Assembly (NCBI GenBank): GCA_913055685.1
Contig: CAJXKC010000001.1
Coordinates: 868,001-932,000 of the forward strand
DNA from: an uncultured Flavobacteriales bacterium
Lineage (GTDB): Bacteria; Bacteroidota; Bacteroidia; Flavobacteriales; Schleiferiaceae
DNA length: 64,000 bases
Reading direction: 5' to 3'
Each line of letters opens with the position of its first letter. Position 1 is the first letter of the stretch. The notes beneath the pieces were generated by a model. The model saw nothing but the letters and a program-made list of their open reading frames with translations, did no database searches and was not told the origin of the DNA. A program made the translations under genes and the position numbers. Below, piece by piece: positions 26,544-47,093 of this stretch.

Positions 26544-27572
26544 ATGGCAAAAAGAATCCTTTTTGGGGTGTTGAATTGGGGGCTCGGGCATGCGAGTCGC
26601 AGCGGTTTACTAATCCGTAGACTGGTATCCGAAGGATTTGAACCCGTATTAGCTTCCGACGGACTAGCCTTGGAGTACTTGAGAAGAGAGTTTCCTAACT
26701 TAGAAAGTCGCGAATTACCACCCTATGAAGTGCGGTATAGTAAGGGTAGCAACCAATGGCCTAAATTATTGGCTGCCCTTCCTAGTTTGGCTAAGGCAGC
26801 GGCAAAGGAAAAAGCATTAGTAGAATATTGGTTCGAGGCCGATGGTTTTGAGGGGGTTATTTCCGATAACCGCTTAGGTTTCTATCACAAGGCGCGTCCA
26901 TCAGTTTACATTAGTCACCAGTTAGCCCCGCAAGCAGGAATTTTTACAGCCGTCGCCAAAAGACTTCACGCTTCTTATTACACCAATTTTAATGAAATTT
27001 GGGTACCCGATACGCCACTATCTACCCTTAGCGGTAAGCTAAGTAAAGCAAAGGTCGGAGGACTTCGCTACATCGGTCCCTTATCGGCCTTAAAGCCTAA
27101 GGAAGGTAAGCAGAATAAGATCTTGGTAGTGCTAAGTGGACCAGAGCCGCAGCGAAGTATTTTGGAAGCAGATATTTTAAATCAGGCGGAAGCATTAAAG
27201 GAGGACTTGGTGGTAGTACGTGGCACTAATTTAGCCTGTGATTCACGCTATCAGAAGAGCTATAAAATTTATGATTTCCTCGGAGCAGAGGATTTATCAA
27301 AATTGATAAATGAGGCCAAATTGGTGATATCGCGCAGCGGCTACAGCTCCATAATGGACTATTATCATTTAGGTAAGCGGGCGCTTTTAGTTCCTACTCC
27401 GGGCCAAAGTGAACAGGAGTACTTAGCGAAGTCCCTTATGAAAAAGGGGTATTTCCATGCCGTTGCGCAGAAAGACTTGGATTTGGAAAGGGATATTGAA
27501 AAAAGCCTTGCCTATCCCGAACTTGAAGCTCAGCCAATAGTACTAGCCGACGATTTGTTTAGGCTTTTTTAA
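26544..27572 (+). CDS. Glycosyltransferase of the GT28/MurG-like type
   Basis: The 342-residue GT-B fold protein has an N-terminal glycine-rich loop (GVLNWGLGHASRSGLLIRRL). Its C-terminal nucleotide-sugar site is RSGYSSIMDYYHLGKRALLVPTPGQSEQEYL, like the donor loop of MurG and related enzymes. Acceptor and donor are not identifiable. Relatives are annotated as teichoic-acid-like or uncharacterised glycosyltransferases. Its end overlaps the convergent histidine kinase gene by 14 bases. Confidence 0.8.
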   Translation: MAKRILFGVLNWGLGHASRSGLLIRRLVSEGFEPVLASDGLALEYLRREFPNLESRELPPYEVRYSKGSNQWPKLLAALPSLAKAAAKEKALVEYWFEADGFEGVISDNRLGFYHKARPSVYISHQLAPQAGIFTAVAKRLHASYYTNFNEIWVPDTPLSTLSGKLSKAKVGGLRYIGPLSALKPKEGKQNKILVVLSGPEPQRSILEADILNQAEALKEDLVVVRGTNLACDSRYQKSYKIYDFLGAEDLSKLINEAKLVISRSGYSSIMDYYHLGKRALLVPTPGQSEQEYLAKSLMKKGYFHAVAQKDLDLERDIEKSLAYPELEAQPIVLADDLFRLF

Positions 27573-28605
27573 GGGTGAAGGAAAAGGTAGAGCCCTGGTC
27601 TTCACTACTACGCACATTAATAGTTTGCTTATGCGCCTCGATGATGTGCTTTACAATGGATAGTCCCAAACCAGTGCCCCCTGCATCTCTGCTGCGGCTT
27701 TTGTCTACCCGGTAAAAGCGTTCAAAAACTCGTGGGAGATCGGCTTGCGGAATACCCACGCCATCGTCGCTAATTTCAATGAGGATATGTGCATCCATGT
27801 CAAAAAAACGCACTTCGACCATGCCTTTTTCGCGTCCGTATTTTACCGCATTACCAATGAGGTTAATAAGAACCTGCTCAATCTTTGAGCGATCGGCACT
27901 TACCCAAACTGGTCGGTCATTTTCCTTACGGGTTTTAAACTCTATTTTTTTCTTTTTGCCATTGTCTTCGAGCAATTCGTAAACGTCTTCCACCAGTTCA
28001 ACGATATCGAAACGGCCATAATTCACTTGCACGCGATCCGATTCTAGGGCGGAAATAACCTCGAGATCTTCGATGATATTAATCATCCGGTCTACCGACT
28101 TATTAGCCCTTTTTAAATAGCGGCGGTTTATCTCCTTGTCGTCTATTGCTCCGTCTAACAGGGTGAGCAGGTAGCCTTGAATATTGAAAATGGGCGTTTT
28201 TAATTCATGAGAAATATTGCCGATAAATTCCCGACGAAAGTTTTCACGCTCCCTTAATTCAGCAATTTCATTACGGTTTTGGGTGGCCCATTCCGAAACT
28301 TCCTTGGTAACAAGATCGAGATCGGTTGAACGTGCTAATTCATCCTCATCGCGTTCATTACCAATTTTAAGTTCATGAATGTTCTTGTAGATGATCTTAA
28401 CCTTGCTGTATACGAATTGCTCAACCCCAATGCGAATCAAGAAATAGGAGACAAGCGCTATAAAGGTGCTAATAGACAGGGGTAAATAATCGGGTACCCC
28501 TTCCTTTACCAGTACTGCCTTAAAGGCACTAAGGGCAGCAAAGGATATTCCTCCGATTAATATCGAGAGAACAAAGGCTAATGTTCCGGGGCGGTCAAAT
28601 CGCAT
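27559..28605 (-). CDS. PhoR-like sensor histidine kinase
   Basis: The 348-residue kinase has two N-terminal membrane helices with a short external loop, a linker (KIIYKNIHELKIGNE, HAMP-like), HisKA with ISHELKTPIFNIQGYLL (His133), N-box NLIGNAVKYG, G1 DDGVGIP and G2 GGTGLGLSIVKHIIEAH. The layout without a large sensor domain is the one usual for Bacteroidota PhoR homologues, which depend on Pst/PhoU for input. It overlaps the regulator gene by one base (TAATG), so the two form a cognate pair. The phosphate role is inferred from similarity and the Na/Pi transporter nearby. Confidence 0.88.
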   Translation of the reverse strand: MRFDRPGTLAFVLSILIGGISFAALSAFKAVLVKEGVPDYLPLSISTFIALVSYFLIRIGVEQFVYSKVKIIYKNIHELKIGNERDEDELARSTDLDLVTKEVSEWATQNRNEIAELRERENFRREFIGNISHELKTPIFNIQGYLLTLLDGAIDDKEINRRYLKRANKSVDRMINIIEDLEVISALESDRVQVNYGRFDIVELVEDVYELLEDNGKKKKIEFKTRKENDRPVWVSADRSKIEQVLINLIGNAVKYGREKGMVEVRFFDMDAHILIEISDDGVGIPQADLPRVFERFYRVDKSRSRDAGGTGLGLSIVKHIIEAHKQTINVRSSEDQGSTFSFTLKKA

Positions 28606-29291
28606 TATGCTTCAAATTTGTAGCCTACGCCTTTTACGGTTTTAATGTATTTATCGCCGATTTTTTCGCGCAGTTTACGGATGTGTACATCAATGGTTCG
28701 GCCACCGACAACCACCTCGTTGCCCCAGATTTTATCTAGTATTTCATCGCGGTGAAATACCTTGCCGGGACGAGAAATTAGCAGACTCAATAATTCAAAC
28801 TCCTTACGGGGTAGGTCTAGCTTTTTTCCCTTATAACTCACCTGGTATTTATCTAGGTCGATACTCAGGTTACCAAATTCTTGGATGCTATCACTGGCTT
28901 TGCTATTCTGACCATAACGGCGTAATAAGGCTTTGATGCGACTAATCAAAACCTTAGGCTTTATAGGTTTTGTGATATAATCATCGGCTCCAGCGTCGAA
29001 GCCGGCCACCTGCGAATAATCTTCGCCTCTGGCGGTTAAAAAGGCCACTAGGGTGTCTTCAAGTTCGCTGGTATTACGTATTTGATCACAGGTCTCAATG
29101 CCGTCCATTCCCGGCATCATTACATCTAATAATATAAGGTGTGGTTTTTCCTTTTTCGCTTTTTTAAGACCCTCCTCGCCATTGGGGGCGGTGGAAACGT
29201 TAAAACCTTCTTTTTTGAGATTATAGCTTACAAACTCCAATATATCGGGTTCGTCGTCTACTAGTAATAATCGATAATCGCTGTTGTTCAT
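28605..29291 (-). CDS. PhoB/OmpR-type response regulator
   Basis: ATG 29291 gives MNNSDYRLLLVDDEPDILEF and 228 residues; the longer track start is less likely. The receiver domain has D12/D13, acceptor D56 in LLDVMMPGMDG, T in FLTARG and K in ITKPIKP. A winged-helix DNA-binding domain follows, with LDLPRKEFELLSLLISRPGKVFHRDEIL and a GGRTIDVHIRKLREKIGD recognition helix. It should bind direct repeats with an 11-base period. Just upstream lie several CTTAACA repeats, so autoregulation and control of the divergent operon are likely. Confidence 0.92.
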   Translation of the reverse strand: MNNSDYRLLLVDDEPDILEFVSYNLKKEGFNVSTAPNGEEGLKKAKKEKPHLILLDVMMPGMDGIETCDQIRNTSELEDTLVAFLTARGEDYSQVAGFDAGADDYITKPIKPKVLISRIKALLRRYGQNSKASDSIQEFGNLSIDLDKYQVSYKGKKLDLPRKEFELLSLLISRPGKVFHRDEILDKIWGNEVVVGGRTIDVHIRKLREKIGDKYIKTVKGVGYKFEA

Positions 29292-29315
29292 ATTGCGCTG
29301 ATTGGCTTGATGGGT

Positions 29316-29356
29316 CAAAAATAGCTATTAAGCCTATGGTCTTAACCCACTTAACA
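29316..29356 (-). promoter_or_regulatory. Promoter of the PhoB-like regulator with half-sites
   Basis: On the minus strand TATTTTTG (29323-29316) is a good -7 box, about 25 bases before ATG 29291. Upstream lie CTTAACC (29341-29347) and CTTAACA (29350-29356), read on the plus strand, at the position where a -33 or activator site is expected. GTTAAAT (29361) follows at 11-base spacing. Confidence 0.45.
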
Positions 29357-29428
29357 ATTCGTTAAATTAAAATAATCAAGGAGATAACACAATTATCATT
29401 CTTAAGTAATTCATTTGCAGGGATTAGC

Positions 29429-29459
29429 GAATGTTAAGACTTAACATTCGGTTTTTTTT
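29429..29459 (+). terminator. Palindrome with T-run in the phoB-lipoprotein gap
   Basis: GAATGTTAAG-A-CTTAACATTC is a perfect inverted repeat, extended by one more C-G pair, and is followed by GG and eight T. It can act as a plus-strand terminator. Its half-site is the same CTTAACA as the nearby repeats, so it could equally be a regulator site; sequence alone does not decide. Confidence 0.45.
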
Positions 29460-29485
29460 AAAGCCCTCTGGTTTCTTCAAACTGG

Positions 29486-29520
29486 CTTAACACCGACTTA
29501 ACAAAACCCCCTTTCCTTTG
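29486..29520 (+). promoter_or_regulatory. PHO-box-like repeat and -7 element before the lipoprotein-receptor operon
   Basis: Two identical CTTAACA units (29486-29492, 29497-29503) are separated by CCGA, a period of 11 as in PhoB boxes. TTCCTTTG (29513-29520) is the likely -7 box, 20 bases from the first unit, so the repeat takes the -33 place. Direct PhoB-type activation is inferred. Confidence 0.55.
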
Positions 29521-29548
29521 CCGGCAACAAATAACATTTATTTCTCCG

Positions 29549-30742
29549 ATGAAAAAATTTAGAATTTTAACCATGGCTGCCATTGCCGCTTTCGCTCTTA
29601 CTTCTTGTGGGGACGACAATGATGGTGATACTACCCAGCCTGAAGACACTGTACTTTCTGGTTCTTTAACTTCAGATCGTACCCTTACAAAAGACAACAT
29701 TTACACTTTAAGCGGTCGTTATATCGTTGAAGGTGGAGCAACTTTAACCATCGAAGCCGGTACTATTATTAAGGCCGAGCAAGGAACAGGAGCTTCTGCT
29801 TCTGCACTAATTGTAAGTCGTGATGGTATGATTAATGCTCAGGGTACTGCTACCGAGCCAATTATCTTTACCTCAGTTGCCGATCAAATTACTCAGGGTC
29901 AAATTGTATCTCCTAACTTAACTCCTTCTACTAACGGTCTTTGGGGTGGTGTTATCATCTTAGGAGAAGCGCCTATTTCTGCCCAGAACGCTAATGGTGA
30001 CGATGTAGTTGAATTACAGATTGAAGGTATTCCTACTACTGTAAATGCGCTATACGGTGGTACCAATGGTGGCGATAATAGCGGTACATTCTCTTATGTA
30101 TCTATTCGTCATGGTGGTGCTAACATTGGTGATGGAAACGAAATCAATGGCCTTACTATGGGTGGCGTTGGTTCAGGTACCACAGTTAACAACATCGAAA
30201 TCGTAGCGAACCAGGATGATGGTATCGAGTGGTTCGGTGGTAATGTAAGCGTAAATAAGGTAGTAATCTGGAATGCAGGTGACGACGCTTTGGATACCGA
30301 CCAAGACTGGATTGGAACTTGTTCTGATTTCATCATCGTTACTCCTGACGGATCAGCCTTCGAATTAGACGGTCCTGAAGGAAGCACCAACCGTGGTACG
30401 CATCAGTTTGATAACGGTGTAGTATACGCTGGCTCAGCTATCTCCGATCTAGTAGATTGGGATGATAACACAAATGCTGGTCTTACTAATATATACTTCT
30501 ATGGAATTGACGCTTCTTATACCGATGGTATTTCTTCATTCGGTGGTGACGGAGCAGCAACTACTTCTGCTTGGGAATATACTCTACCTGCTGGTTTATC
30601 AGTAGATTCAGTATTCCAAGGTGTGCCAGCTAGCATCCTTACCGAAGTAGCTGAAAATGCAAATACTGTTGGTCCAGATGCAAGTGCCTTAGGGTGGACT
30701 TGGGCTGGAGCCTCTAACTCTTTATCTGCTATCGGATTGTAA
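29549..30742 (+). CDS. Beta-helix-like surface lipoprotein
   Basis: The 397-residue protein has a lipoprotein signal (MKKFRILTMAAIAAFALTSC, Cys20) and an acidic linker (GDDNDGDTTQPED). Repeated strands follow (YIVEGGATLTIEAGTIIKAE, INAQGTATEPIIFTS, VNNIEIVANQDDGIEWFGG, VSVNKVVIWNAGDDALDTD) that suggest a right-handed parallel beta-helix. No catalytic motif is recognised. It is followed by a terminator-like hairpin and then by a TonB-dependent receptor gene 87 bases on. The likely role is a surface partner of that receptor, possibly in capture of a phosphorus-containing ligand; this rests only on the PHO-box-like promoter and neighbours. Confidence 0.72.
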   Translation: MKKFRILTMAAIAAFALTSCGDDNDGDTTQPEDTVLSGSLTSDRTLTKDNIYTLSGRYIVEGGATLTIEAGTIIKAEQGTGASASALIVSRDGMINAQGTATEPIIFTSVADQITQGQIVSPNLTPSTNGLWGGVIILGEAPISAQNANGDDVVELQIEGIPTTVNALYGGTNGGDNSGTFSYVSIRHGGANIGDGNEINGLTMGGVGSGTTVNNIEIVANQDDGIEWFGGNVSVNKVVIWNAGDDALDTDQDWIGTCSDFIIVTPDGSAFELDGPEGSTNRGTHQFDNGVVYAGSAISDLVDWDDNTNAGLTNIYFYGIDASYTDGISSFGGDGAATTSAWEYTLPAGLSVDSVFQGVPASILTEVAENANTVGPDASALGWTWAGASNSLSAIGL

Positions 30743-30829: not shown

Positions 30830-33709
30830 ATGAATTTCCTCAAACAAACAGTATCTGCTCTCTTGCTAGTCCTACCAGGACTTTTGTTGGCTCAAAAAGG
30901 TACAATCCGTGGTCAGGTGATCGACGGTGAGAACGGTGAGCCACTCTTCAGCGCCAACGCGGTGATTAAAGGGACGACCAATGGTACCACTACCGACTTT
31001 GACGGTAATTTCGAGCTTCGCGCGGAACCTGGAACCTATACACTGGAACTTAGCTTCATTGGGATGAGCAACCTGCTTATTACCGATGTGGTAGTTAAAT
31101 CGGGAGAAGTAACTGTTATTGATCCAGTGAAATTGGAACCAGCGAGTAGTCAGCTTGCAGAGGTGGTAATTACTTCCGAAGCAGTGCGCAACTCAGAAGC
31201 GGCCTTGGTAACTGTTAAGCGTAAGTCTACCAACCTAATGGACGGTGTGTCTGCGGCAAAACTTCGTAAAACGGGTGATTCCGATGCGGGTGATGCAGCC
31301 AAACGTGTAACCGGAGTTTCGGTAGAAGGTGGAAAATATGTTTATGTACGCGGACTCGGAGACCGCTACACTAAGACCATGCTGAATGGAGTAGATATTC
31401 CTGGCCTTGACCCGGATAAAAACTCCATGCAAATCGACATCTTTCCTACCAATTTGATTTCGAACCTATCGGTGTTAAAAAGTGGATTGGCAGAGTTGCC
31501 AGCCGACTTTACCGGAGGTGTGGTTAACATCGAGACGAAGGAATTTCCTACCAAGAAAATGTTGGATGTATCTATTGGTACTTCTTACAATCCAAGCATG
31601 CACTTTAATAGCAATTACCTAAGCTATGAAGGTGGTGCAACCGATTTCCTAGGCTTTGATGACGGTACCCGTGCCATGCCCAATGGCGATGGAACTGGGC
31701 CCATTCCCTTCTTTAATTCCAATAGCGAAGTAGAAGAGTTTAACAACAAGTTTAATCGGACTCTAGGTGCTACCAACTCTACCAGCTTGATGGATTACAA
31801 TTTGGGGCTTTCCATGGGAGATCAATACGTATTGGAAAATGGTAACAAATTGGGTTACATTTTCTCCGCTACTTACGATAACTCAAGAAGACTATACGAA
31901 GGCATTGAGTATGGCGAATGGCAGCGTTCTCGTTTTACCGATGAATACGAAATGGTAGAAGCTACTACTCAGACTGGTGTGCTTGCTGAAAACAGTGTTT
32001 TATTAGGAGCGCTTGGTGGTATTACCTACAAGACCCTGGCATCTAAATACAAGTTTACGGCGATGCACTTGCAGAATGCTATTTCAAAATCGGCGCAATT
32101 GGAAGTAACGGCCTTAGATGGTGCGGCCCAAGTATCCGATTACAATGCATTTTCGCATAACCTCGAGTTTAACCAACGTGGGGTTACCAATTTACTCTTT
32201 GCCGGTGAGCATTACATCGATGGTGGCGACTGGGAATTAGAGTGGAAAATTTCTCCGACCTTATCAACTATTCAGGATCCGGATATTCGCCGTACTCCTT
32301 TCTCAATAGACCGTGGAGATTCTACTTTTGACCCAGGTGAAGGTGGTCTGCCTAGCCGAATCTGGCGTTTCCTAAATGAGGTAAACCAAGTTTCTAAAGT
32401 AGACGTTCGTCGTCCACATGAGCTATTTAATGCGGATGCAAAATTGAAATTTGGTGTAAGCCATGTATTTAAATACCGTGATTACAGCATTTACCGCTTT
32501 AACTTGCAAAATTATGGAGCTTCTACCACTTATTCGGGAGATCCAAATGCAGTATTAACGTATGATGCTTTTTACCCCAATGGTGGCTTAGCCTATACAC
32601 CAGAATTGAATGTTGGAAAGGCAAACCCTAATGAGTATCAATCCAATATCAACAACTTTGGGGCATACATCTCCGAAGAGTTTGAACCAATTAAAGGTCT
32701 TAAAACAGTAGTAGGATTAAGAGCCGAGTTGTTCTTACAACGTCATACCGGTCGTGATCAAGTGGCAGCATTGAATCCGAATGACCCTAGTGGTAGAACT
32801 TTAGACAATGAGTTGGTTCTGGATGGGTTTAACCTTTTCCCCTCGGCTAACTTAATTTATGCCTTAAACGAGGATATGAACTTGCGTGGTTCTTTCTTCC
32901 GCTCTATTGCTCGTCCTTCTTTTAAGGAATTATCATTTGCCCAGATTTTAGACCCTATTTCTAACCGTACCTTTAATGGTGGCTTATTCCAATACGCCAA
33001 TTGGGATGGTAATTTAGAAGCTACCCTTATCAATAACTTCGATTTACGTTGGGAGTATTTTATCGGTGGCCCTGATATCGTTTCGGTGTCTGCTTTCTAC
33101 AAAGCTTTTGATAATCCGATCGAATTAGTGCGTATTCCTTCAGCTTTACGGGACTTCCAACCACGAAATGTTGGTAATGGTACCTTGTACGGAGTAGAAT
33201 TTGAGTTGCGTAAAAACCTAGGATTCTTGAAAGAAAGCTGGAGCAATTTTGCCTTCTCAGGTAACTTCACCTATACCTATTCACAAATTGATATGACTGA
33301 CGCTGAGTTTGACGCACGTAAATTTTCAGAACGTGATGGTCAGACGATCGAGCGTACTCGCGCTATGGCCGGGCAAGCGCCTTACATCGTAAACGCAGGA
33401 ATCAGTTATGATAATTCGGATAAAGGAATTAGCTCGGGTATCTTCTACAACGTGAAGGGACGCACTTTAGAGATTGTAGGTGGAAACTTAGCACCAGATA
33501 TTTATTCGGAGCCATTCCATAGCTTAAACTTCACCTTAAATAAATCCTTTGGTGAGGAGGGTAAATCTGCCATCAACATTAAGGTATCCAATATTTTAAA
33601 TGATGTGCGCGAGAGCTTATACCAAGCCTATGAGGCAACTCCGCAGGTGTTTAATCGCTTAAATCCAGGGACTGCGGTTTCAATAGGATATACTTATAGT
33701 TTTTATTAA
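30830..33709 (+). CDS. TonB-dependent receptor with carboxypeptidase-regulatory domain
   Basis: The 959-residue outer-membrane protein has a signal peptide ending LLLAQ, a carboxypeptidase-regulatory-like domain (about 23-105, GTIRGQVIDGENGEPL), and a plug (about 125-235, with VYVRGLGDRYTKTMLNG and ELPADFTGGVVNIETKEFP). A 22-strand-type barrel follows, with a C-terminal aromatic end (YTYSFY). The plug is of the RGLGDRYT type seen in large proteobacterial and Bacteroidota receptors, not the SusC type, and there is no SusD. Together with the lipoprotein upstream it forms a likely uptake pair. The ligand is unknown; phosphate esters are one inference from the regulator next door. Confidence 0.9.
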   Translation: MNFLKQTVSALLLVLPGLLLAQKGTIRGQVIDGENGEPLFSANAVIKGTTNGTTTDFDGNFELRAEPGTYTLELSFIGMSNLLITDVVVKSGEVTVIDPVKLEPASSQLAEVVITSEAVRNSEAALVTVKRKSTNLMDGVSAAKLRKTGDSDAGDAAKRVTGVSVEGGKYVYVRGLGDRYTKTMLNGVDIPGLDPDKNSMQIDIFPTNLISNLSVLKSGLAELPADFTGGVVNIETKEFPTKKMLDVSIGTSYNPSMHFNSNYLSYEGGATDFLGFDDGTRAMPNGDGTGPIPFFNSNSEVEEFNNKFNRTLGATNSTSLMDYNLGLSMGDQYVLENGNKLGYIFSATYDNSRRLYEGIEYGEWQRSRFTDEYEMVEATTQTGVLAENSVLLGALGGITYKTLASKYKFTAMHLQNAISKSAQLEVTALDGAAQVSDYNAFSHNLEFNQRGVTNLLFAGEHYIDGGDWELEWKISPTLSTIQDPDIRRTPFSIDRGDSTFDPGEGGLPSRIWRFLNEVNQVSKVDVRRPHELFNADAKLKFGVSHVFKYRDYSIYRFNLQNYGASTTYSGDPNAVLTYDAFYPNGGLAYTPELNVGKANPNEYQSNINNFGAYISEEFEPIKGLKTVVGLRAELFLQRHTGRDQVAALNPNDPSGRTLDNELVLDGFNLFPSANLIYALNEDMNLRGSFFRSIARPSFKELSFAQILDPISNRTFNGGLFQYANWDGNLEATLINNFDLRWEYFIGGPDIVSVSAFYKAFDNPIELVRIPSALRDFQPRNVGNGTLYGVEFELRKNLGFLKESWSNFAFSGNFTYTYSQIDMTDAEFDARKFSERDGQTIERTRAMAGQAPYIVNAGISYDNSDKGISSGIFYNVKGRTLEIVGGNLAPDIYSEPFHSLNFTLNKSFGEEGKSAINIKVSNILNDVRESLYQAYEATPQVFNRLNPGTAVSIGYTYSFY

Positions 33710-33819: not shown

Positions 33820-36800
33820 ATGAAGCGAAGAATATCGATCTTTTTAGCAACTCTAAGTGCCTTGATGATAAGCTATCAAGGTTTTACCAATTCTGGCGGT
33901 GCTCCGCAAGGAAGAACTGGTTCGCCAGCCTCTAACGGCAATACCTGTGCAACCGGTTGTCATAGTGGCGGAACAGCGGCTAGTCAGTCTATTTCCATAA
34001 GTAGCACTATCCCTGCCTCTGGTTACCAAGCGAATACCAATTATACCATTACGGTTACGGCTAACAACGGTACTACCAGCTCTTCGACCATCGGCTTCCA
34101 AGCCTCTGTGGAAGATGCTGCAGGACACGTTGGTTCGATTTCTTTCCCTGGACCTGGAGCGCAAGTTTCCGGATCTTATGTAACTCACACCATTAGTGGA
34201 ACTAGCGCTAGTGGTGGTTCACGCAGCTGGACTTTCAATTGGAATCCTGGTGCCAATCCTCCAGCAAGTGCTACAGTTTACGTTGCTGCTAATTTTGCCA
34301 ATGGAACTGGTGGTACTGCAGGTGACTATATTCTTACGCAGTCGCAAGCCTTTAATCAGGCGGTAAGTGTACCGAGCTACACCATTTCACAAATCAATAG
34401 TCTTGACGCCACTTTTTCACCCGACTCGCTGGGCGTGAACTGCGCTTTAACTGGTGTGGTGTTTACCGATGACTTTGATGGTAATGCCGGCTACAGTTTT
34501 TACATGTATGATAATACTGGCGAAATCAATGTATTCGATTTTGTAGATGAGCCTAATGGTTATCAAGCAACCCGCGGTGACTCAATCCGCGTATATGGCG
34601 ATATCGCTTTCTTCAATGGTCTTTTAGAAATTCAGGTAGATTCAATTCAAACCTTGGCCACCGGCCTTGCACTTCGTGCTCCTAGAGTGGTGACCACCTT
34701 GGATGAAACAACCGAAAGTGATTATATCCGCCTAAATGGCTTTAGCGTGGTTACGCCCTCACAATGGCCATCGGCAGGAAGCAGTGCTAATGTGGATATT
34801 AGCAATGGATCGACTACCCTTACCATGCGTATTGATAGCGATACCGATATCGACGGCAGTCCAGTACCTACTGGTACCTTTGATGTTATTGGTGCCGGAG
34901 CGCAATTCGATAACTCTTCGCCCTACGATGCTGGTTATCAAATCTTCCCTCGCGACATTAACGATATTCTACCTGCAGCAACCGTAATCAACGGAGTGCC
35001 TTTGTATACTATTTCTCAGATCAATAGTCTCGATGCTACCTTCTCACCCGATTCATTGGGCGTTAATTGCGCCATTGATGGGGTAGTTTTCACCGATGAT
35101 TTCGATGGAAATAATGGCTACAGCTTCTACATCTATGATAATACCGGCGAGATTAATGTATTCGACTTTGTAGATGAGCCCGGTGGCTATCAGGCGAACC
35201 GAGGTGATTCAATTCGGGTATTTGGTGATGTGGCCTTCTTTAACGGTCTGCTTGAAATCCAAGTTGATTCTATTCAGACTTTAGGTACCGGCATTAGCCT
35301 TCGTGCCCCTCGTGTAGTATCCATGCTAGACGAAAGCACCGAGAGTGATTACATTCGTTTAAATGGCTTCACTTTGGTAAACGCTGGGCAGTGGCCTGCA
35401 AGCGGAAGTAGCTCTAATGTGGATATTACCAATGGTGTAGATACGCTAACTATGCGTATCGATAGTGATACCGATATTGATGGTACTGCTGCTCCTACTG
35501 GTTATTTCGATGTAATCGGAGCGGGATCCCAGTTCGATAACTCTTCACCTTATGATGAAGGCTATCAAATCTTCCCACGCGATACCAATGATATTATTCC
35601 TGGAGCGGCCCCTGCTACTCCTTGTACCCAGCCATTCTTCTCGGAGTACATCGAAGGAAGCTCGAATAATAAAGGCTTTGAAATCTATAACCCTACTCAG
35701 GCTAACCTCGACTTAGGTCCTTATAAAGTTTACTTGAGTGGTAATGGTGGTAGTTTCACCAATGAGTTTGACTTATCCGGTACTATAGCTTCGGGCGACG
35801 TTTACGTGATCACTACCGATCAGGCTGACCCAACCATGCTAGCGATTGCCGACACTTCTTTATCCTTCCCTAGTGTAGCTCACTTCAATGGCGACGATGC
35901 CTTGTTCTTGGTGGATACCGTAATTGGAGATACCTTAGATATTATTGGGATAATTGGCGTAGACCCAGGTTCTTCTTGGACTGTAGGTGCCGGATCTACC
36001 GAAAACCATACGCTAGTTCGTAATGCTAGTATTACTAATGGTCAAACTGACTGGACCATAGGTGCTACCGAATGGACGGTTAACCCAAGTAATACCTTTA
36101 GCTTCTTTGGTGCGCATACCAGTACTTGTGTAAATACCAGTCCCACTACTCCAACAGTGGCTTTCCGTCCAGGAAACTACTCAGTGCTAGAGAACTTTGG
36201 TACCGGTGCGATTACGCTTGACATTACACCAACCAGTACCACTACCGATACGGTTTATATGGCCTTTAATCCAGGTCCAGGTTTAACTCCAGCCGATGGT
36301 ACTATTAGCCCTGCTTTTGATCCGAACACCGGATTGTTAAGTTTGGTAGTGCCTGCTGGCTCAGATTCTATTAATCTAACTACGACCATTATCGATGATG
36401 CCTTAGTAGAGGGATTAGAATATGGTGATATGCTTATCCTTGGAACTAGTGCTGGCTTAAGCGTGGGTAGTTTAGATTCCATTCGCTTTGAAATTATTGA
36501 TAATGATATCCCTACTTACACTATTGCTCAGGTAAAAGGAGTAGATGCTAATGTATCTCCCGATTCACTAGGAGTACAATGTAAACTGGTAGGTACGGTA
36601 TTTAGCGATGACTTCGACGGTAATGGCGGTTATAGCTTCTACATGTACGATAACACCGGCGGAATCAACATCTTTAATTTCGTGGACGAACCAGGAGGTT
36701 ATCAAGTAAACCGTGGCGATTCTATTCGCGCCATTGGTCATATCGAATTCTACAATGGTCTTATCGAATTGCAAGTAGATTCCATTAAGCTATTGGCGAG

Positions 36801-37896
36801 CGGCCTAAGCTTAAAGCAGCCTACTCAGGTTTATGATTTAGGTGAGCATACCGAAAGTGAGTACATCCGCTTAAATGGTTATTACCTAGTAGATCCTAGC
36901 TCATGGCCAATTTTTGCTGGTTCTAGTGTGAATATGGAAATCACTAATGGTCAGGATACGCTAGTAATGCGTATCGATAGCGATACCGATATCGATGGTA
37001 CTCCGGCTCCAACAGGATACTTTGATGTAATTGGTGCGGGTGGTCAGTTCGACAACAGCGCGCCTTACGACGAGGGTTACCAAATCTTCCCTCGCGACAC
37101 TAATGATATCATCCCCGTAAGCTTGCCACAAGTTTACATTAGTGAGGTAATGCCTAGTTCGAACCTTAGCGCACCGATTAATGGTGATTGGTTTGAAGTT
37201 CGCAACATGGGAACTTCTGCGATTGATCTAAACAATTTCGCTTGGGCGGATGATAGTCGCAACTCTAACTTCCACACCGTTGGAACTTCTGTGCAAATTC
37301 CTGCCGGTGGTAGCGCTTTATTTGTTGACGTAGCTAGCGCTGATGTGAATGCTTGGGAAACCGAGTGGAAGCAAAATGGTCAAGGTTTAATCATTCTTAA
37401 CACGGCCGATGAATTTGATAATGGATTTAGCGATATAGACGCTAGTGGTGATGAGGTAAACCTTTACGATGACGGAGGTCGATTAGTTTCTTCGGTAAGT
37501 TTTGCAGCTTCAGATGTAATGGCTGGCTTTAGCTTAGAATACGATAATAGTGGTGCCCTTCAAGGTGCAGCGGTAGACGGAGTAAATGGTGCATATACCT
37601 CTCAGAATGGAGATGTTGGCTCACCAGGAGATCAATCTGCTATTGGTCTAGAGGATATTCTTAGTCAGAACTTAAGTTTATTCCCGAACCCAAGCAATGG
37701 TATCTTTACCATTATGGCTAGCAATAATGCCGAGAAGGTGGTAGAAATCTACAACCTTAACGGAGCTCTGGTGCAGCAGATTGTTTCTACCGATGTAGAC
37801 ATTCGCATTGACTTAGGAGAAATTCCTGCCGGTGTTTACCTAGTAAAAGTACGTGCCGACAAACAAACAGTTAGTCGCAAGCTGATTGTACAGTAA
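33820..37896 (+). CDS. Large T9SS surface protein with three OB-like repeats, two lamin-tail domains and Calx-beta
   Basis: Domains in 1358 residues: signal peptide; a choice-of-anchor V/reeler-like N-terminal domain with CATGCHSGG (about 20-180); two copies of a roughly 200-residue OB-fold-like module starting YTISQINSLDATFSPDSLG; a lamin-tail domain (FFSEYIEGSSNNKGFEIYN); a Calx-beta domain (VAFRPGNYSVLENFG); a third OB-like copy; a second lamin-tail domain (YISEVMPSSN); and a type A sorting domain (LSLFPNPSNGIFTI). Lamin-tail plus OB modules are frequent in secreted nucleases, but no nuclease catalytic domain is visible here. It may be an adhesin or nucleic-acid-binding surface protein. 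Confidence 0.85.
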   Translation: MKRRISIFLATLSALMISYQGFTNSGGAPQGRTGSPASNGNTCATGCHSGGTAASQSISISSTIPASGYQANTNYTITVTANNGTTSSSTIGFQASVEDAAGHVGSISFPGPGAQVSGSYVTHTISGTSASGGSRSWTFNWNPGANPPASATVYVAANFANGTGGTAGDYILTQSQAFNQAVSVPSYTISQINSLDATFSPDSLGVNCALTGVVFTDDFDGNAGYSFYMYDNTGEINVFDFVDEPNGYQATRGDSIRVYGDIAFFNGLLEIQVDSIQTLATGLALRAPRVVTTLDETTESDYIRLNGFSVVTPSQWPSAGSSANVDISNGSTTLTMRIDSDTDIDGSPVPTGTFDVIGAGAQFDNSSPYDAGYQIFPRDINDILPAATVINGVPLYTISQINSLDATFSPDSLGVNCAIDGVVFTDDFDGNNGYSFYIYDNTGEINVFDFVDEPGGYQANRGDSIRVFGDVAFFNGLLEIQVDSIQTLGTGISLRAPRVVSMLDESTESDYIRLNGFTLVNAGQWPASGSSSNVDITNGVDTLTMRIDSDTDIDGTAAPTGYFDVIGAGSQFDNSSPYDEGYQIFPRDTNDIIPGAAPATPCTQPFFSEYIEGSSNNKGFEIYNPTQANLDLGPYKVYLSGNGGSFTNEFDLSGTIASGDVYVITTDQADPTMLAIADTSLSFPSVAHFNGDDALFLVDTVIGDTLDIIGIIGVDPGSSWTVGAGSTENHTLVRNASITNGQTDWTIGATEWTVNPSNTFSFFGAHTSTCVNTSPTTPTVAFRPGNYSVLENFGTGAITLDITPTSTTTDTVYMAFNPGPGLTPADGTISPAFDPNTGLLSLVVPAGSDSINLTTTIIDDALVEGLEYGDMLILGTSAGLSVGSLDSIRFEIIDNDIPTYTIAQVKGVDANVSPDSLGVQCKLVGTVFSDDFDGNGGYSFYMYDNTGGINIFNFVDEPGGYQVNRGDSIRAIGHIEFYNGLIELQVDSIKLLASGLSLKQPTQVYDLGEHTESEYIRLNGYYLVDPSSWPIFAGSSVNMEITNGQDTLVMRIDSDTDIDGTPAPTGYFDVIGAGGQFDNSAPYDEGYQIFPRDTNDIIPVSLPQVYISEVMPSSNLSAPINGDWFEVRNMGTSAIDLNNFAWADDSRNSNFHTVGTSVQIPAGGSALFVDVASADVNAWETEWKQNGQGLIILNTADEFDNGFSDIDASGDEVNLYDDGGRLVSSVSFAASDVMAGFSLEYDNSGALQGAAVDGVNGAYTSQNGDVGSPGDQSAIGLEDILSQNLSLFPNPSNGIFTIMASNNAEKVVEIYNLNGALVQQIVSTDVDIRIDLGEIPAGVYLVKVRADKQTVSRKLIVQ
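34378..34977 (+). repeat. OB-like module, copy 1 of 3
   Basis: It encodes YTISQINSLDATFSPDSLG through GYQIFPRDINDI, about 200 residues. It is highly similar to copies at about 35005 and 36517, including FTDDFDGN, YDNTGEINVFDFVDEP and MRIDSDTDIDG. Confidence 0.85.
35005..35601 (+). repeat. OB-like module, copy 2 of 3
   Basis: It is nearly identical in protein sequence to copy 1 but clearly diverged at synonymous sites, so the duplication is old and kept by selection. It is directly adjacent to copy 1. Confidence 0.85.
36517..37113 (+). repeat. OB-like module, copy 3 of 3
   Basis: This is a more diverged copy (YTIAQVKGVDANVSPDSLG). It is separated from copy 2 by a lamin-tail and a Calx-beta domain. 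Confidence 0.85.
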
Positions 37897-37921: not shown

Positions 37922-37950
37922 GGGACTTCTGCTTGGCAGGAGTCCCTTTT
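37922..37950 (+). terminator. Terminator before the Na/Pi cotransporter gene
   Basis: An 11-bp stem (GGGACTTCTGC / GCAGGAGTCCC, one T-G pair, loop TTG) is followed by TTTT. The ORF-track start of the next gene (37933) lies inside its loop, which argues for the later GTG 37960. Confidence 0.85.
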
Positions 37951-37959
37951 CTGATAAAA

Positions 37960-39678
37960 GTGTCTGGTTTAATATTCGACATATTATCCTTAATTGGTGC
38001 CTTGGGTCTCTTCATCTACGGAATGAAAGTGATGAGCGAGTCCATTCAGAAGTTTGCTGGTGCTCGTTTACGCAAGACTATGCGGGCCATGACCGCCAAT
38101 CGTAGCTTGGGGGTTTTCACGGGCTTTACCCTTACCGGAATTTTACAATCTTCATCGGCCACCACGGTGATGATCATCAGCTTTGTGAATGCCGGTCTTA
38201 TCAGTTTGGAGCAATCGGTAGGAGTAATTATGGGGGCCAATTTAGGAACCACCGTTACCGCCTGGCTAGTAGCTCTGTTGGGGATGGGAAAATTTTCCAT
38301 ATCCGCTTTAAGCTTACCCATTTTAGCGATTGCATTTCCAATGATCTTCCTTTCTAAGGAAAGACTCCGTTTGTACGGAGAGGCCATCTTTGGTTTTGCG
38401 ATTTTATTTATAGGTTTATCCTTTATGCGGGATGCCTTGCCTTCATGGCAAGACAATCAGATAATTCTCGATTTTTTACAGCAATTCGATTATCGTCATA
38501 GCAACTACCTGCATAACCTAGGCATTAGCTTTTTATTTGTACTGTTCGGAATGGTGGCCACCTTCCTCTTGCAGTCTTCTTCTGCGGCAATGGCCTTAAC
38601 CATTGTCTTTACCGCTGATGGCTTAATAAGTTTCCCTTTAGCGGCTGCAATAATTCTCGGCGAGAATATTGGTACCACCTTTACTGCTAATATTGCCGCT
38701 GTAGTGGGTAATGTCTATGCCAAGCGAAGTGCGAGAACGCATTTATTATTTAATGTAGTAGGGGTATTATGGGCCCTCTTGCTCTTTCCGTTTTTCCTAG
38801 ATTTTATTGCCTTCCTAAGTAAATTACTCTTTAATGGGAACCCCTTTGAGGATACCGCAAGTATTCCACTGGCTTTAAGTTTATTTCATACCCTTTTTAA
38901 CTTATTTAACCTCATTCTTTTCTTTAACCTCGTTGGGCTCTTGGTTAAACTGGCAACTTGGATGGTCCCTAGTCGTGGTAGTGAGGATGAGTTGTTTGGT
39001 CTCGATTACATCGGCTCCAGCCTTATGGCCACTCCCGAGCTTTCAATTATGGAGGCGCGCAAGGAGTTGGTAAAGTTTGCCGACCTAATACGGAAAGCTT
39101 ATAAATACATTCCATTATTAATCACCGAAATGGACGAGCGTAAGCTAAAATCTTACGTGAATAAGCTTCAGAAATACGAGGATATTTCGGATCGTATGGA
39201 GGTGGAGATTTCCAATTACCTGTCTAAGCTTAGTCAGAGTGAACTTAGCCTCGAAGGCACCAGCAAGGTGCGAGGGATGTTACATGTAGCGAACTACCTC
39301 GAGCGTATCGGCGACATTTATTTAGAGGTAAGCCGTAACCTAACCCATCGCAAGGAGCAAAAAGCCTATTTCACTCCTGATATGCGTAATCAGGTGATGC
39401 AATTATCGGAATTGGTTTCGCGGTGCTTGGATTTAATGGTGAAGAATGTGGATCTAAGTTCGGGTGTTCAAGACTTAGAGGAAACAAAGCGAGTGGAGCG
39501 TGAAGTGACGGAACTTTTCACCAAACTAAAAAGTGATTACATCCATAAAGTAGAAAAGGGTAAATACCGTATTCAGAGTGGTATGTATTACGCCGATTTA
39601 CTCGCGGAGATGGAGCGTATTGCCGACCATGCCACCAATGTGAGTACTACTTTTTTGAAAAGTCAGTTAAGCGATTAA
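37960..39678 (+). CDS. Na+/phosphate cotransporter family protein with PhoU-like domain
   Basis: About 572 residues. The N-terminal half has the two inverted Na/Pi-cotransporter repeats with their QSSSA motifs (LTGILQSSSATTVMI, TFLLQSSSAAMALTIV) and GANLGTT / GENIGTT. The C-terminal part (about 350-572) is a helical PhoU-like domain (RKELVKFADLIRKAYKY to ADLLAEMERIADHATN). It imports inorganic phosphate with sodium across the inner membrane, fitting a marine bacterium. No ATG precedes the first membrane helix; GTG 37960 is the best start because the earlier TTG lies in a terminator. No CTTAACA box is seen directly upstream. Confidence 0.92.
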   Translation: MSGLIFDILSLIGALGLFIYGMKVMSESIQKFAGARLRKTMRAMTANRSLGVFTGFTLTGILQSSSATTVMIISFVNAGLISLEQSVGVIMGANLGTTVTAWLVALLGMGKFSISALSLPILAIAFPMIFLSKERLRLYGEAIFGFAILFIGLSFMRDALPSWQDNQIILDFLQQFDYRHSNYLHNLGISFLFVLFGMVATFLLQSSSAAMALTIVFTADGLISFPLAAAIILGENIGTTFTANIAAVVGNVYAKRSARTHLLFNVVGVLWALLLFPFFLDFIAFLSKLLFNGNPFEDTASIPLALSLFHTLFNLFNLILFFNLVGLLVKLATWMVPSRGSEDELFGLDYIGSSLMATPELSIMEARKELVKFADLIRKAYKYIPLLITEMDERKLKSYVNKLQKYEDISDRMEVEISNYLSKLSQSELSLEGTSKVRGMLHVANYLERIGDIYLEVSRNLTHRKEQKAYFTPDMRNQVMQLSELVSRCLDLMVKNVDLSSGVQDLEETKRVEREVTELFTKLKSDYIHKVEKGKYRIQSGMYYADLLAEMERIADHATNVSTTFLKSQLSD

Positions 39679-46955: not shown

Positions 46956-47093
46956 AGTATTAATGTGCTACTTAAGGCGGATTAAACAGATTTTAAGAGC
47001 TTGTTAAGCTTTCTAAATGGAGTAAAAACTAAGTCTTTTAAACGAGCTCAGGCTGCTTTTAGTTTAGCGTGGTGTATTCTCTGTCTTTGGAGC

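Follow-up and report, generated by a model that had tools for sequence, protein, structure and literature searches.

A cluster of CTTAACA heptamers lies between a phoB-like regulator gene and a lipoprotein gene of an uncultured Flavobacteriales bacterium, and it raises the question of whether this gap is an operator region that serves both genes. The window analysed here is the whole stretch of 64,000 nucleotides around this locus. The sequence-only reading had placed the cluster between these two genes, and indeed it occupies exactly the divergent intergenic gap at positions 29292-29548. The genes of the locus are:

26544-27572, plus strand: family-28-type glycosyltransferase (PF04101), convergent with phoR, a homologue of the Pi-induced Fjoh_0541 type
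27559-28605, minus strand: phoR/pnpS-like sensor histidine kinase, 348 aa, with NCBIfam PnpS and PhoR matches
28605-29291, minus strand: phoB-like response regulator, 228 aa, with receiver and OmpR/PhoB winged-helix domains, ATG at 29291
29549-30742, plus strand: surface lipoprotein, predicted beta-helix (FII-like), homologous to lipoproteins of phoBR-TBDT clusters
30830-33709, plus strand: TonB-dependent receptor (PF00593, PF07715, PF13715)
33820-37896, plus strand: T9SS-secreted DUF5689/lamin-tail protein, conserved downstream
37933-39678, plus strand: NptA-type Na+/Pi cotransporter carrying PhoU domains at its C-terminus (PF02690, PF01895)

Genes flanking the divergent gap

The TTG at 29318 proposed by the ORF finder as the start of the regulator was rejected, because it overlaps the promoter and the conserved start is ATG 29291, whose Met is conserved as GTTnTTCAT in an alignment of the divergent gap (17 sequences, the window's own among them). 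The regulator is the best PhoB match (TIGR02154) of its genome, with scores below the cut-offs of both PhoB profiles (219.8 of 296.2 bits for TIGR02154 and 219.3 of 270 bits for NF053854); of 14 control genomes, just two reached the TIGR02154 cut-off. On these profile scores we term the protein PhoB-like and do not assign it as a PhoB equivalog. The kinase scored below the NCBIfam cut-offs as well (PnpS, 273 of 400 bits; PhoR, 241 of 334 bits). The structure model of the lipoprotein had a pLDDT of 87, and Foldseek returned weak matches, mostly to beta-helix proteins and none below E 0.001.

The product of 33820-37896 is a large protein with three DUF5689 stretches, a lamin-tail domain and an OB-fold; its gene keeps its place between those of the TonB receptor and the Na/Pi symporter, and the protein is possibly phosphorus-related. 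The Na/Pi cotransporter gene was found after the TonB receptor gene in eight of the nine relatives checked that had enough contig. A strong terminator-like hairpin at about 37930-37955 overlaps the annotated TTG start of the cotransporter ORF, so that the true start is probably a later codon; since the hairpin separates the DUF5689 gene from the cotransporter gene, their cotranscription is not certain.

Half-sites in the gap

All copies reported earlier were found, that is, exact CTTAACA at 29350, 29432 (minus strand), 29440, 29486 and 29497, and CTTAACC at 29341. The partners at a distance of 11 bp were also correct: 29361 reads GTTAAAT (with 29350) and 29497 reads CTTAACA (with 29486). A third in-phase half-site, CTTCAAA at 29475-29481, was absent from the earlier list. 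The earlier reading expected a given heptamer only a few times per strand in 64 kb by chance. CTTAACA itself is not rare, since the window has 12 exact copies versus 9.7 expected from shuffles; its clustering is unusual nevertheless. Five of the 12 copies fall within 154 bp (29350-29503). For any given stretch of 165 bp, the Poisson probability of five or more copies is 8e-11; the largest cluster within 165 bp in 200 simulated 64-kb sequences comprised two copies. A window scan for a tandem triple TTAA pattern gave a sole, unrelated match at 46982, and a sigma-70 scan yielded no promoter of the classical type, which is in line with expectation for Bacteroidota.

The -7 consensus of Bacteroidota promoters is TAnnTTTG at -12 to -5 (PMC9723704). 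With this consensus and the half-sites, the gap is organised as follows:

29316-29323, minus strand: phoB -7 element, TATTTTTG, a perfect match to TAnnTTTG
29350-29367, plus strand: phoB-proximal operator O1, CTTAACA-ATTC-GTTAAAT, 11-bp period, with CTTAACAAnnnTTAAT conserved
29428-29459, unstranded: perfect 11+1+11 palindrome CGAATGTTAAGACTTAACATTCG (29428-29450) followed by GT8, terminator-like on the plus strand
29475-29503, plus strand: operator O2, CTTCAAA-CTGG-CTTAACA-CCGA-CTTAACA, three half-sites with an exact 11-bp period, conserved
29513-29520, plus strand: -7 element of the lipoprotein/TonB-receptor operon, TTCCTTTG, one mismatch to TAnnTTTG, 9 bp past the end of O2

Both genes thus have a -7 element of the Bacteroidota sigma-A type, and their transcription starts can be predicted. 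Taking TAnnTTTG as -12 to -5, transcription would start at about 29525 for the lipoprotein operon and at about 29311 for phoB, which would place O2 at about -50 to -22 and O1 at about -39 to -56 of phoB.

Conservation of O1 and O2

In the gap alignment, two conserved blocks remain, O1 and O2, and the AAAAnTA of the phoB -7 element is conserved among the 17 sequences. The CTTAACC at 29341 is not conserved, and the copy may have arisen by chance. The palindrome is absent in relatives, even within the genus, where at most one half of it is kept. The inverted pair 29432/29440 was rejected as a PhoB site, as it is not conserved and an inverted arrangement is not of the PhoB type; the palindrome probably does not belong to the Pho operator.

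In most loci that have O1 within 70 bp of phoB and a recognised -7 element, the two are 34-35 bp apart, and the distance between O1 and phoB was unchanged in two loci whose gap to the lipoprotein gene had grown to 409 and 497 bp. Since this spacing is fixed regardless of intergenic length, we assign O1 to phoB and O2 to the lipoprotein operon. O1 points away from phoB, an unusual orientation for a classical activating box. In six relatives (L019, L020, L022, L023, L037 and L039), an extra minus-strand 11-bp pair that points at phoB is present 25-40 bp beyond O1; the species of the window is without it.

For a wider comparison, about 110 loci encoding the lipoprotein were reduced to 78 dereplicated upstream regions. 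The lipoprotein and TonB receptor genes adjoin each other in nearly all loci, and the divergent PhoB-like neighbour occurs mainly in Flavobacteriales. A relative outside the family (locus L121) carries the gene order of the Flavobacterium johnsoniae phoBR cluster. The 78 upstream regions contain 26 TTAAC pairs at spacing 11, versus 0.2 expected from dinucleotide shuffles, and 0-4 pairs at other spacings, save for nine at spacing 31. The density of the 11-bp pairs was 9.5 per 10 kb in the upstream regions and 0.32 elsewhere in the same loci, a 30-fold difference. In 58 of the 78 regions there was a box that agreed at 10 or more of the 12 positions, versus about 4.5 in shuffled sequence, and 14 of the 20 TTTG occurrences after good boxes are located at exactly 13 bp.

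A composite promoter at the lipoprotein operon and at pit

The sequence-only reading had proposed a genome-wide motif search as a check. With the bare box the search was not informative: TTAACA-N5-TTAACA pairs with at most one mismatch occurred 22 times in the whole genome, versus 21 times for the backward controls. The composite TTAAC-N7-TAACA-N13-TTTG, on the other hand, was matched perfectly at exactly two places of the 2.96-Mb genome, the O2 promoter and the promoter of pit, the genome's one PHO4-family transporter gene. Across 12 genomes, a slightly looser composite gave 25 matches, of which 11 were at promoters of the lipoprotein gene, 11 at those of pit and three elsewhere, versus seven for the backward control, and the pit upstream regions of relatives have the box and the spacing seen in the genome of the window. 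Since bare pairs are no commoner than in the backward control, the bare box defines no regulon, whereas the composite promoter does.

Several further boxes were not accepted as targets. The exact matches beside pruA (C3:174577) and beside the gene of a T9SS protein (C1:167825) are without the full promoter, and their targets are uncertain; the boxes near moxR, dapF, an RprY-like system and other genes carry one mismatch, and we do not claim them as regulon members. The moxR box is located about 75 bp upstream of the moxR/bat operon (C1:771265; L206 4266). A nearly identical box, TTAACACTAG[AG]TTAACAAAA, precedes homologous genes of T9SS-secreted proteins in two genera (C1:167808-167841, L009 7826; L211 1501), and these boxes read away from the gene, like O1 at phoB. 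Two species of the genus carry tandem boxes, with opposite orientations, between pruA and the gene of a 121-aa protein (C3:174566-174593, L003 1490-1517; L227 1501).

The Pst system was not found in the genome: there was no PstS (TIGR02136) and no PstB above the cut-off, so that the pstSCAB genes of a canonical Pst-linked Pho regulon could not be recognised. Porin_O_P was not found in the genome either.

Interpretation of the region

The boxes consist of at least two 7-bp half-sites in direct repeat with 4-bp spacers (29475/29486/29497 and 29350/29361) and stand at a fixed spacing close upstream of the -7 element (9 bp to TTCCTTTG, the same in relatives and at pit). Judged by sequence only, they are associated with phosphate genes, namely the pit promoter in 11 genomes and the PhoU-type Na/Pi symporter of the cluster. 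On this evidence, the feature is a Pho box of the PhoB type combined with a Bacteroidota promoter core; switches of this kind are known, and the present one is unusually well supported. The operator serving both directions through PhoB-like 11-bp repeats, as suggested earlier, stands in its essentials, with a conserved box at a set distance from each promoter and the same architecture at pit; it has to be confined to 29350/29361 and 29475/29486/29497, as 29341 and 29432/29440 are not conserved. We consider it very probable that the region is a divergent promoter/operator of a Bacteroidota Pho regulon, in which the PhoB-like regulator would activate the lipoprotein operon via O2 and autoregulate via O1, with pit under an O2-type promoter. 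We infer that the adjacent PhoB-like protein binds these boxes and that the promoters of this species depend on phosphate.

Under phosphate scarcity, the kinase (27559-28605) would phosphorylate the PhoB-like regulator (28605-29291), which would bind head-to-tail on the 11-bp direct repeats of CTTAACA. Bound to O2, the regulator would stand in for the -33 element and bring RNA polymerase to TTCCTTTG (class II activation), and pit would be activated likewise from its O2-type promoter. Through O1, the regulator would control its own gene, by either activation or repression: the box faces away from phoB, whereas the PhoB of F. johnsoniae rises when Pi is depleted. Since an O2-type promoter would also drive pit, such a regulon would couple uptake across the outer membrane with phosphate import across the inner membrane and with autoregulation.

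Two other readings compete with this one. The boxes could be real operators of the OmpR family that are used by another regulator (C2:103161 or the RprY-like C4:18916), the PhoB-like gene being merely adjacent: proteins of this family share direct-repeat operators of 10-11 bp, both candidates are full-length members encoded in the genome, and PhoP of Riemerella anatipestifer, with its TTTAACA motif, pairs with a BaeS-type kinase and is perhaps the orthologue of a different regulator. However, the box precedes the phosphate transporter gene pit, it precedes phoB itself at a fixed distance, and the homologous F. johnsoniae genes respond to Pi, and we regard this reading as improbable. A chance or repeat-derived accumulation of an AT-rich heptamer without function might be argued from its unremarkable total in the window (12 versus 9.7) and from the unconserved copies at 29341 and in 29428-29450. 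The clustering was never approached in simulations, though, and the exact phase and spacing are conserved in dozens of genomes; conservation rules out a chance origin of O1 and O2, and the probability that the cluster as a whole arose in this way is negligible.

The palindrome at 29428-29450 may be functional in itself, either as a hairpin that terminates transcription or as an inverted-repeat operator of its own, which would be compatible with the Pho operator reading. With its T8 it looks like a stable terminator hairpin: its folding energy is -9.8 kcal/mol (z -3.6), and it gave one terminator-like match in the scan. The two exact CTTAACA words in it are inverted relative to each other. Against a function stand its lack of conservation even in the genus, where relatives retain one half at most, and the fact that no upstream plus-strand gene is in need of a terminator, and we consider it rather doubtful.

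If the region is the operator of a Pho regulon, this regulon would have no Pst system. It is conceivable, though we hold it only tentatively, that the PhoR-like kinase senses phosphate via another transporter, e.g., the PhoU-fused Na/Pi symporter of the cluster or Pit, whose own gene has the box as well. Bacteroidota matter in phosphorus turnover, and in the literature searched their Pho regulon is known mainly from expression data. Our analysis supplies a searchable candidate for a Bacteroidota Pho promoter, CTTAACA direct repeats at 11 bp placed 9 bp before TAnnTTTG, which in 12 genomes selected phosphate promoters with few other matches. In bacteria without Pst, it also connects Pit-type phosphate import with an uncharacterised pair of lipoprotein and TonB receptor. 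Besides the Riemerella motif, no described Bacteroidota Pho box was found in the literature searched, whose coverage mostly excludes subscription journals. The Pho box is little described for this lineage in that literature, and phosphate sensing by the kinase without Pst is the more interesting question.

Comparison with known systems

A close counterpart of the locus is the F. johnsoniae cluster Fjoh_0541-0546 (PUSIV), which encodes a glycosyltransferase, OprP, PhoR, PhoB, a TBDT and the beta-helix lipoprotein FII (PMC8115612). Upon Pi depletion, PhoB, the TBDT and the FII lipoprotein increased by log2 values of 3.1, 8.0 and 9.9, respectively; the text of that paper makes no mention of an operator (PMC8115612). 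The glycosyltransferase, PhoR, PhoB, TBDT and beta-helix lipoprotein are homologous in the two clusters, whereas in F. johnsoniae the TBDT gene precedes the lipoprotein gene and an oprP gene is present. In Riemerella anatipestifer, DAP-seq yielded the motif TTTAACA for PhoP, which directly activates the moxR/bat operon; the authors likened this motif to that of ArcA and not to an 11-bp Pho box (PMC9603813). This is again a PhoP/PhoB-type regulator of Bacteroidota with a near-identical half-site, and a moxR box, with one mismatch, is found here too; the partner kinase of PhoP is of the BaeS type, and PhoP is perhaps the orthologue of another regulator.

Outside the phylum, cyanobacterial SphR binds tandem CTTAACCT in three copies (PMC1906773). 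The half-site is nearly identical, the period is 11 bp, and the three copies correspond to those of O2, whereas the promoter core, phylum and target genes differ. The Pho box of E. coli PhoB consists of two CTGTCAT half-sites in an 11-bp unit (PMC4415409, PMC1906773). In contrast to E. coli, the half-site here is CTTAACA, the core is TAnnTTTG at 9 bp, and the proposed targets are the TonB receptor/lipoprotein operon and pit instead of pstSCAB. Both systems share 7-bp direct half-sites with 4-bp spacers, which lie shortly before the -10/-7 element and replace the upstream promoter element, and a regulator of the PhoB type.
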